From Verrucomicrobiales bacterium (GTDB lineage: Bacteria > Verrucomicrobiota > Verrucomicrobiia > Verrucomicrobiales > DEV007), in NCBI GenBank assembly GCA_016795505.1, contig JAEUHH010000004.1:1-39931 (forward strand): 39,931 nt of DNA, in the 5' to 3' direction. This document shows, one piece after another, positions 2,948 to 39,931 of the stretch. A program made the translations under genes and the position numbers. A model generated the notes under the pieces. It did no database searches and was not told where the DNA came from. It was given only the letters and a program-made list of their open reading frames with translations. Within the stretch, counting starts at the first letter, position 1, and each line of letters opens with the position of its first letter.

Positions 2948-3931
2948 ATGTCCCGCCCCCTCATCCTCGGCACCCGCGGCAGCGACCTCGCCCTCACCCA
3001 GACCCGCATGGTCGAGGCCGGGCTGCGCGCCGCCGGCTATTCCGGCTCCATCGAAGTCAAGATCATCAAGACCATCGGCGACAAGCGTCCCGACCTAAAG
3101 CTGTCCGAGTTTTCCCAAGGAGATCAGCCGGTCGTCGACAAAGGCATTTTCACCAAGGAACTTGAGGAGGCCCTGCTCGCCGGCGAGATCGATGCCGCCG
3201 TCCACAGCCTCAAGGACGTGCCCACCGATCTCAGACCCGATTTTCGCATCGTCGCCACCCTCGAGCGGGCCCCGGTCGAGGACGTGTTGCTGACGCGGAT
3301 TCCGATGCAACAGGGTCTGATCGGCGATGCAACAGGGTTGGATCGGAAAACCATCGCCACCAGCAGCGTCCGCCGCGCCCGCCAACTCGCCTGGCTGTAT
3401 CCAGGCGCGTCCGTGGTGGACATCCGCGGCAACGTACCCACCCGAGTCGGAAAACTGCTCGCCACCCCGGAGTGGGACGGCATCCTGCTCGCGCGCGCCG
3501 GCTTGGAGCGGCTCGGCATCCTGCCCCAGGGCCAGGGCGACGAGACCTGCTTTGAGTTCGAGGGCCAGACTGTCCACGCCCTCATTCTTGATCCCGGTGC
3601 CTTTTTACCCGCCGCCGGCCAGGGCGCGGTCGCCATCGAGGCCCTGAAAACGAATGCCGAAGCCGCGGCTGCCTGCGCCCTGATCAATCATGCGCCGACC
3701 TTTGCCCGCGTCACCGCCGAGCGCCATTTCCTGCACCGCCTCCAGGCCGGCTGCCAGACGCCGGTCGGTGCATTGACCTGGTTCGAAGACGGCGGCGACA
3801 CTCTTGCGATGCGCGCCCGCGTCTTCGATGAAGCCGCGCCGGATGCGGACCCGCTCGAAGCCGCCACCCGCGGCCCCGCTGCCGATCCCGAAGCCATCGC
3901 CGACCAACTTTACGCCCTGATCCATGCCTGA
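2948..3931 (+). CDS. hemC: Porphobilinogen deaminase (hydroxymethylbilane synthase)
   Basis: HemC joins four porphobilinogen molecules into hydroxymethylbilane on a dipyrromethane cofactor. The 327-residue protein has LGTRGSDLALTQT at the N-terminus, the KGIFTKELEEALL and AVHSLKDVPTDL active-site blocks, TSSVRRARQL, DIRGNVPTRVGKL, and the cofactor cysteine C269 in LQAGCQTPVGA. It is somewhat longer than the roughly 310-residue norm. Part of the extra length is at residues 118-135, encoded by a palindrome-family element described separately at 3299-3350. That segment lies just before TSSVRR, where E. coli HemC has about five fewer residues. The gene overlaps the following cobA-hemD start by 8 bp (ATGCCTGA), which points to translational coupling. 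Confidence 0.96.
   Translation: MSRPLILGTRGSDLALTQTRMVEAGLRAAGYSGSIEVKIIKTIGDKRPDLKLSEFSQGDQPVVDKGIFTKELEEALLAGEIDAAVHSLKDVPTDLRPDFRIVATLERAPVEDVLLTRIPMQQGLIGDATGLDRKTIATSSVRRARQLAWLYPGASVVDIRGNVPTRVGKLLATPEWDGILLARAGLERLGILPQGQGDETCFEFEGQTVHALILDPGAFLPAAGQGAVAIEALKTNAEAAAACALINHAPTFARVTAERHFLHRLQAGCQTPVGALTWFEDGGDTLAMRARVFDEAAPDADPLEAATRGPAADPEAIADQLYALIHA
3299..3350 (+). repeat. REP-like palindromic element inside the hemC reading frame
   Basis: This 52-bp stretch aligns along nearly its whole length, with one gap and a handful of mismatches, to the reverse complement of the intergenic element at 18835-18885. Both start with TTCCGATGC, contain CAGGGT(C/T)TGATCG(G/C)CGAT, and end GATCGGAAA. 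Inside hemC the central hairpin is degraded, and the sequence now reads as two near-direct copies of CAACAGGGT at 3309 and 3331. It encodes I118 to K134 of HemC without breaking the frame. Confidence 0.65.
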
Positions 3932-18834: not shown

Positions 18835-18885
18835 TTTCCGATCAGACCCTCTTTGATCGGCGATCAAACCCTGTCGCATCGGAAA
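18835..18885. repeat. REP-like palindromic element between ispA and sucC
   Basis: The element is bounded by an 8-bp inverted pair, TTTCCGAT (18835-18842) and ATCGGAAA (18878-18885). Its centre is a perfect 17-bp palindrome at 18852-18868 (TTTGATCG, G, CGATCAAA). Its reverse complement matches the stretch inside hemC at 3299-3350. No T-run follows, so it is not a standard terminator, though it may still act as an RNA hairpin at the end of the asd-ispA transcript. Confidence 0.75.
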
Positions 18886-38503: not shown

Positions 38504-39469
38504 TCAGCCTGCCGTAGGCTCCGTCGCCTGCATCAGCGCGCGGATGTAGCCGTAGGCAAAGAGGCGGCCCAGCATGGTGTAGCCCGGCTCGCCGTCCTCC
38601 TCGCCTTCCAGTTGGGGCACATGATCCGGGCGCATCGGTCCATCGAAGCCGACGGACCGCAGGGCGCGCATCACGGCCACCATGTCGGTGGGGCCGTTGT
38701 CGTGAAAGGTCTCGACGAAAGACTCCGCCGTGCCGCGGACATCGCGGAAATGGACATACCGGATATGTTGGCCGAGCCGCCCGATCGCCTCGGGGATGGA
38801 GACTCCCATGGCGACGAAGGTGCCCACGCAGAAGCAGATCGCGTGATTCGGGCTCGGCGCCTCGGCCATGAGCCGCTCAAAGGCCTCCACCGAGTTCAGG
38901 ACCCGCGCCTTGTGGCGAAAGACGGCCAGCGGCGGGTCGTCTGGGTGCATCACCACGGTCACGCCATGCTCCTCCGCGACGGGCAGGATGCCGTGGAGAA
39001 AAGCCAGCAACCGCTCCCACAGCACCCCGGCCGCGACCGGCTCGTCGTCGATCGGACCACCCGTCGTGGCGCTCAACGAGACCGCCTGCTCGGCTGCGGC
39101 GAGATCGAAGGCCGTGACCCGCGCCCCGCCGCGCTCGGGAGCGTCCACCCGGGTGCGCACCCAGTCGGTGCCGGCCATGAAATTCGTGCACAGCAGCGGG
39201 ATGCCCAGCTCACCCATGTGCCGGATCAGGGACCGCACTTCCTCCAAGTCCCTGCCGTCATGATCCGTGCCCAGCTTGATGCGCTCGATCGGCAGGTGAC
39301 CCTCCACCGCAAAGAGTCGTAATCCCTCCGAGGCGATGTGGTCGCGCACCGCCCGTAGCGCCTCCCGTCCCGGACCAGGGTAGCGGGAGACGACCCCCTC
39401 GACACCGCACTGGGCGGCGAGACGCAGATTTTCCCGCGAAAGCGGCGACAGGACGGTGGCGAGTTGCAT
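38504..39469 (-). CDS. Mannonate dehydratase (UxuA)-like TIM-barrel protein
   Basis: From ATG 39469 the protein has 321 residues, shorter than E. coli UxuA (394). Family blocks are MHPDDPPLAVFRHKARVLN, CFCVGTFVAMG, VHFRDVRGTAESFVETFHDN, GPTDMVAVMRALRSVGF and RPDHVPQLEGE, which carry the metal-binding His, Cys, His and Asp residues of the UxuA/xylose-isomerase-like fold. UxuA turns D-mannonate into 2-keto-3-deoxygluconate in glucuronate catabolism. The shortened length leaves room for a related sugar-acid activity. A longer frame to 39574 is rejected because its first residues are encoded by the palindromic element at 39547-39581. It heads a two-gene operon with the enolase-superfamily dehydratase. 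Confidence 0.87.
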   Translation of the reverse strand: MQLATVLSPLSRENLRLAAQCGVEGVVSRYPGPGREALRAVRDHIASEGLRLFAVEGHLPIERIKLGTDHDGRDLEEVRSLIRHMGELGIPLLCTNFMAGTDWVRTRVDAPERGGARVTAFDLAAAEQAVSLSATTGGPIDDEPVAAGVLWERLLAFLHGILPVAEEHGVTVVMHPDDPPLAVFRHKARVLNSVEAFERLMAEAPSPNHAICFCVGTFVAMGVSIPEAIGRLGQHIRYVHFRDVRGTAESFVETFHDNGPTDMVAVMRALRSVGFDGPMRPDHVPQLEGEEDGEPGYTMLGRLFAYGYIRALMQATEPTAG

Positions 39470-39546
39470 GGGACCCACCAGTGAAACTACAAAGCCAGCC
39501 TCCCGTCGAGTCCTTTGCAGGCACGCGACCGCGTCGATCGCGTGGC

Positions 39547-39581
39547 GATGAGACCGGGTCTGATCTCCGATCAAACCCGGT
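39547..39581. repeat. REP-like palindromic element upstream of the UxuA-like gene
   Basis: CCGGGTCTGATC (39554-39565) and GATCAAACCCGG (39569-39580) form a 12-bp stem with one mismatch and a 3-base loop; A39553-T39581 extends it. The stretch 39547-39575 matches the reverse complement of the ispA-sucC element at 25 of 29 positions. It lies between the UxuA-like start codon and the tandem array. Confidence 0.7.
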
Positions 39582-39633
39582 TGACTCGCCGTGCGAGGAC
39601 AGGGACGACGAAGACCGGACGGGTCAATTGGCG

Positions 39634-39931
39634 ATGCCGACGCCTCCCATCAACGCCCCGGCCTGTCCATTGATCGACCTGACGGGTCAATTCAACGACC
39701 TGACGCATCGATTCAACGACCTGACGCGTCGATTCAACGACCCGACGCATCGATTCAACGACCTGACGCGTCGATTCAACGACCTGACGCATCGTTTCAA
39801 CGACCTGACGGGTCAATTCAACGACCTGACGCGTCGATTCAACGACCTGACGGGTCAATTCAACGACCTGACGCGTCGATTCAACGACCTGACGCGTCGA
39901 TTCAACGACCCGACGCGTCGATTCAACGACC
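39634..39931 (+). CDS. Possible start of a heptad-repeat (coiled-coil) protein, 3' end outside window
   Basis: ATG 39634 opens a frame with no stop to the window edge. After a short Pro-rich lead (MPTPPINAPACPLIDL) it consists of a seven-residue unit, F-N-D-L-T-R-R, repeated about twelve times with variants ending G-Q or H-R. F and L sit at spacing 3/4, as at a and d of a coiled coil. One third-codon change (CGA to CGT) is silent in this frame but not in the opposite-strand frame. Against it: no Shine-Dalgarno or promoter is visible, and four of six frames through the array are open, as expected for a 21-bp unit. It may be only a DNA repeat. Confidence 0.25.
   Translation, partial: MPTPPINAPACPLIDLTGQFNDLTHRFNDLTRRFNDPTHRFNDLTRRFNDLTHRFNDLTGQFNDLTRRFNDLTGQFNDLTRRFNDLTRRFNDPTRRFND
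39675..39931. repeat. 21-bp tandem repeat array, truncated by window end
   Basis: Twelve complete 21-bp units (39675-39926) plus 5 bp of a thirteenth. Each unit has the form CGACC(T/C)GACG, a variable pair, TC, then a variable base and TTCAA. Three main variants alternate: core GGGTCAA, GCATCGA and GCGTCGA. The first core change always travels with the last, so GGGTC is always followed by A and GC(A/G)TC by G. A degenerate unit precedes the array at about 39618-39635. There are no unique spacers. Confidence 0.95.

Follow-up and report, generated by a model that had tools for sequence, protein, structure and literature searches.

What kind of element is the 21-bp tandem repeat that runs off the end of this contig: part of a gene for a repetitive protein, a series of protein-binding sites or a minisatellite? 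The stretch of DNA analysed here (the window, 39,931 nucleotides) is the entire contig C70, one of 120 contigs in a 6.55-Mb draft genome. Both the presence of a 21-bp array at 39675-39931 and its continuation beyond the window, as proposed in the initial annotation, proved correct. Tandem Repeats Finder (TRF) bounds the array at exactly those coordinates (period 21, 12.2 copies, 91% matches, 0% indels, score 430), far beyond chance, and the contig ends inside it.

Anatomy of the 21-bp array

The copies follow the consensus CGACCTGACGCGTCGATTCAA and are head-to-tail, contiguous and free of indels. The features of the contig end are as follows.

38504-39469, minus strand: UxuA-like (D-mannonate dehydratase family) gene, reading away from the array
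39546-39595, plus strand: two-unit copy from a distinct family of symmetric 22-bp repeats, upstream of the leader
39618-39629, plus strand: incomplete unit GACGGGTCAATT standing alone upstream of the leader, read by eye
39630-39674, plus strand: leader common to the C63 array and the C37 single-unit locus, from sequence comparison
39675-39931, plus strand: 21-bp tandem array, 12.2 units of CGACCTGACGCGTCGATTCAA, from TRF and the unit list, running past the contig end
39858-39931, plus strand: last 74 bases of the window, matched exactly by the start of contig C64 in reversed orientation; the assembly was probably split here within one array

The start of the UxuA-like gene at 39469 is placed from relatives: most of their matches start close to residue 33 of the longer open reading frame (ORF).

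Across the genome, 42 matches to the unit at ≤3 mismatches were found on three contigs, compared with 0 for the reversed-pattern control. Units were compared in a set of 46 (12 from the window, 25 from C63 and 9 from C64) that leaves out partial units and, at the edges of the C63 array, one degenerate unit at 89108 and the degenerate ones from 89654 onward; if the contigs overlap, 3 of the 9 C64 units repeat the last 3 of the window and the 46 would become 43. These units show 12 distinct changes, which gather in columns 6, 11-13, 15, 16 and 18, and 14 of the 21 columns have at most one change. The window array alone contains six unit types rather than the three variants first described.

The initial annotation also held that two separated positions, columns 11 and 15, always change together (GG..A or GC..G). 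Inside the window this is so: G11 occurs with A15 in 3 of 3 units and a base other than G11 occurs with G15 in 9 of 9 (Fisher p 0.0045). Elsewhere in the same genome the link is broken. The C63 array has C11/A15 in 7 units and G11/G15 in 1, such that A15 is absent from the single G11 unit and present in 7 of the 24 others, and C64 adds one further C11/A15 unit. Over all 46 units, p is 0.037 with 9 exceptions, and we reject the idea that the two columns are kept as a pair as a general rule; the pattern of the window is explained by a small number of unit types that were copied next to one another. Hairpin pairing of columns 6 and 15 was likewise rejected, being Watson-Crick in only 19 of 46 units.

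A leader-plus-array module at three loci

The 74-base identity is the longest exact match between the arrays of C70 and C64, the latter a 4-kb contig. Judged from this overlap, the two are probably halves of a single array of ~393 bp, or 18.7 (~19) units if nothing is missing between them. The joined array would sit between diverging genes, the leftward UxuA-like gene and a rightward C64 gene that resembles a cyclic-nucleotide-binding (cNMP-binding) protein by eye, without a Pfam run. The array accounts for the assembly break at the end of C70. A complete array of 26.7 (~27) indel-free, head-to-tail copies is carried by C63 (L007 7115-7675), where the intergenic setting is convergent, with a short gene on one side and the 3' end of uvrA on the other. 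C37 has the leader plus a single 21-bp unit. The left leader (~45 bp) is common to C70, C63 and C37 at 79-86% identity. With the contigs joined, the genome thus has the module at C70/C64 with about 19 units, at C63 with about 27 and at C37 with one, and the array lies in gene-free stretches in both the divergent (C70/C64) and the convergent (C63) setting. No common right-hand tail was seen, as the right flanks of C63 and C64 do not align beyond the units, and an inverted-repeat search of the C63 region returned no terminal pair.

Bacterial VNTR or minisatellite loci, such as MLVA markers, consist of tandem, head-to-tail, imperfect units of 10-60 bp and are intergenic. The array, known here from one genome with loci of 1, about 19 and about 27 units, is like such loci in general in being tandem, head-to-tail, imperfect and intergenic, with units inside the size range of about 10-60 bp. 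The minisatellite alternative raised in the initial annotation is supported by head-to-tail, imperfect, indel-free units in intergenic, non-coding DNA, and we consider it highly probable that the array is an intergenic non-coding minisatellite within a small dispersed leader-plus-array module at three loci.

Because a one-unit locus exists beside many-unit loci, the unit number may have grown from a one-unit state by replication slippage or unequal recombination. Multi-unit blocks may also have moved or recombined between loci, as the arrays carry the same mixture of variants and not array-specific ones. Mean unit identity between arrays (0.888-0.898, or 0.89-0.90) compares with 0.88-0.92 within arrays and is no lower than that within C63 (0.884), and exact multi-unit stretches of 57-74 bp are common to different arrays; both suggest that the arrays drew on one pool of variants, with the leader coming along. 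An analysis of block-duplication lags gave no clear signal (best uncorrected p 0.02 at lag 8 in the window array and 0.05 at lag 5 in C63).

A 212-bp direct duplication (82%; L007 6741-6951 and 8181-8386), covering the 3' end of uvrA together with a 22-bp element, flanks the C63 module on both sides and hints that the module arose by recombination. A low-complexity serine-rich/acidic stretch, part of which also lies upstream of the C63 array, occurs at two loci (L008 5993-6577 on C37 and L103 about 1860-2120 on C74), where it adjoins genes resembling type I restriction genes.

The genome is rich in minisatellites, with 32 TRF rows of ≥3.5 copies, some overlapping, and periods of 7 to 144 in 1.23 Mb. 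Within the same 1.23 Mb, five period-21 arrays have >5 copies, including that of the window, and they are seemingly unrelated in sequence by eye. The other four are at L203 18289-18475, L194 3527-3658, L199 14665-14775 (which reads by eye as leucine heptads) and L228 2325-2452. Large minisatellites with periods of 41, 41 and 17 were found at L220 3558-3857 (C3), L238 13119-13422 (C56) and L243 749-1124 (C98), respectively.

The closest published analogue in kind is the BrickBuilt minisatellite/MITE of Porphyromonas gingivalis, which in the available text of its description has intergenic 23-nt units in 1 to 22.8 copies with a leader and a tail (PMC4596501). As far as that text goes, both consist of direct repeats that are intergenic, limited to a species, about two helical turns long and without spacers, and both have imperfect units with conserved and variable positions and a leader sequence at several loci (here C70, C63 and C37); the number of units there varies from 1 to about 23 between loci (PMC4596501). 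Compared with the same text, there are three loci here rather than 19, no common tail and no recognised terminal inverted repeats, and the likeness drawn here is one of kind (PMC4596501). GTAG-/CGTC-tagged REP elements, as presented in the available text, are also short, often species-limited, repeated and mostly intergenic, and the 21-bp unit contains GACG/CGTC; however, REPs are interspersed hairpins with an unpaired tag, whereas the array is a head-to-tail tandem in which the central palindrome is not conserved (PMC3733652).

The array seems confined to this genome among those searched. A DNA search of 57 genomes (its own and 56 relatives) matched the array in its own genome only, and so did a search of 387 genomes of the phylum (its own included, overlapping the set of 57) for a full match. 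Three other genomes of the phylum gave single short matches, and none of these is an array of the 21-bp unit. The exact two-unit pattern had 0 matches in genome_contigs and 0 in viral_contigs, collections from which the genome itself may be absent, and the array had no match in plasmids and phages. A literature search found no paper describing the 21-bp array or the 22-bp motif.

Several observations count against the minisatellite reading. One is the missing common right-hand tail, and another is base composition in one reading frame (GC3 of 0.71, discussed below). The RNA form of the array also folds better than shuffled sequences (z -3.7, 0 of 200), whereas the DNA form does not (z -0.36); strand folding was given little weight because tandem near-palindromes fold on themselves. 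Rfam gave 0 matches in the window, L007 and L006.

Binding-site and coding readings of the unit

The 14 low-change columns could alternatively be read as constraint, and a period of 21 sets all units on one face of the DNA. The array might accordingly be a series of protein-binding sites two helical turns apart (iteron-like, regulatory or chromosome-organising), with the conserved core TTCAACGACCYGACG as the recognition sequence; the 22-bp symmetric motif family of the same genome has nearly the same two-turn spacing. We nonetheless regard this as unlikely. The 6.5 Mb contain no more than two arrays and a lone unit, and one array is intergenic between divergent genes, the other between convergent ones. 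The palindromic centre GACGCGTC contains several of the most variable columns, and low-change columns can also come from recent common copying. For iterons in particular, which the initial annotation had offered as a possibility, the context gives no support: the neighbours are chromosomal metabolic or repair genes (UxuA-like and enolase-like genes, uvrA and the cNMP-binding-like gene, the last by eye), no rep or par families were found in ten further ORFs of the window, no replication or partition gene was found beside the arrays, and there was no plasmid or phage match.

A coding role is less probable still. The initial annotation had read the array as F-N-D-L-T-x-x with heptad core spacing, which would make it part of a secreted or structural coiled-coil protein of variable repeat number. 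That frame does exist in one forward orientation, and the F and L of its consensus do give heptad core spacing. It is open through the window array and for 370 codons at C63, has a base composition closer to that of genes than the other open forward frame does (the GC3 of 0.71) and yields weak Pfam matches to coiled-coil families. The forward reading RPDASIQ and the reverse reading ESTRQVV are equally open, however, as the unit has no stop in these three frames (two forward, one reverse), and at C63 the two others give ORFs of 327 and 390 codons.

The units themselves do not behave as a coiled coil. In the FNDLTRR frame, the heptad-core L is replaced by P in 22 of 46 units (2 of 12 in the window, 15 of 25 in C63 and 5 of 9 in C64), and a codon-level selection check in six frames found no synonymous excess in any. 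Per frame, 2-4 of the 12 distinct changes are synonymous, compared with 16-18 of 63 possible changes expected at random, and 9 of 12 are non-synonymous in the FND frame, about the random share. The RPDASIQ frame reaches 45 synonymous changes of 69 when weighted by unit, mostly from three columns whose variants spread by copying. Neither the retention of a hydrophobic core nor the purifying selection of a coiled-coil protein was thus found.

The flanks and the distribution of the array point the same way. Beyond the window edge, in C64, the FND frame ends at a stop some 50 codons after the last unit, and reading the flank frames revealed no protein-like continuation common to the arrays. The Pfam matches of the array ORFs are scattered among coiled-coil families and weak, and the few that pass a cut-off probably do so through repetition. 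The array is also absent from the 56 relatives. Given the lack of synonymous excess, the core prolines, Pfam matches at the level of noise and the stop in C64, the array is most likely not coding, and we consider the heptad-repeat protein very improbable. The case carries a caution, in that stop-free 21-bp units yield convincing heptad reading frames by chance.

Other classes can be dismissed briefly: a CRISPR array, as the units are contiguous without unique spacers; a REP element, as they are a head-to-tail tandem rather than an interspersed hairpin; and carriage by RAYT transposases, as repeat matches at their loci are near what density alone gives (among 15 examined loci of the 17 Y1_Tnp matches in the genome, one, L076, has a 4-mismatch unit match and 3 hold a 22-bp core).

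The 22-bp symmetric motif family

The second repeat near the array belongs to a much larger family. The 22-bp motif GAT-NNN-AC-(AGG/CCT/CGG/CCG)-GT-NNN-(A/G/C)TC has 198 strict units in a 1.23-Mb sample (reversed control, 0), which extrapolates to about 1,000 copies in the genome. They form 61 two-unit, 10 three-unit and 46 one-unit elements, with a spacing of exactly 22 bp; some of the single units within ORFs may be there by chance. A differently built pattern found 330 in this genome; 0, 3 and 1 in three congeners; and 0 in 34 others. Covariation of the stem was rejected, as perfect inner pairs are rarer than in shuffled sequences (1 versus 7.3 of 61).

Sites in the window are at 3303-3346, 18856-18882 and 39546-39595. 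The first lies in hemC, and other conserved genes with the motif are iscS (L225 15106), an ABC ATPase gene (L241 3256) and uvrA (L007 13286). The hemC copy aligns without gaps to its two closest named relatives, from metagenome-assembled genomes with 77% and 76% identity. Judged from hemC, the genome belongs to an uncultured Verrucomicrobiales bacterium. The iscS, ABC ATPase and uvrA copies align gap-free to solved homologues, except that the best ABC ATPase homologue has a one-residue gap that the second lacks. A copy in an epimerase gene aligns with a gap and tells nothing either way, and for the L239 element the single alignment shown begins only at the element's end. From these alignments, it looks as if the motif replaced native codons at equal length in conserved genes rather than being inserted. 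Uptake sequences are a possible analogue of the family.

Might the 21-bp array be a diverged, expanded form of this interspersed repeat, carried by the same process? The 21-bp unit contains GATTCAAC, as rare 22-bp units do. Its best alignment scores 25, which 0.7% of shuffled units also attain. This figure overstates the case, because the four 22-bp references were picked by hand once the data were known, and the one that matches has the triplet TCA, which occurs in just 2 of the 198 units. At C70, C64 and C63 the array has elements of the 22-bp family no more than about 0.5 kb away, yet this proximity is weak evidence, as both repeat types favour gene-free stretches. We give this origin little credence. 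More speculative again, and a long shot, is the notion that the array and the ~1,000 22-bp copies, with their spacing of about two helical turns, are both platforms for a single DNA-binding or DNA-copying system specific to this species. Such a system would overwrite existing sequence with its motif and leave the length unaltered; the array would then be a locally amplified, diverged platform.

Read as a minisatellite, the array adds a species-limited member, new in sequence, to a known kind, and has little significance by itself. The 22-bp family matters more: its lying without indels in conserved genes would, if confirmed, be unusual.
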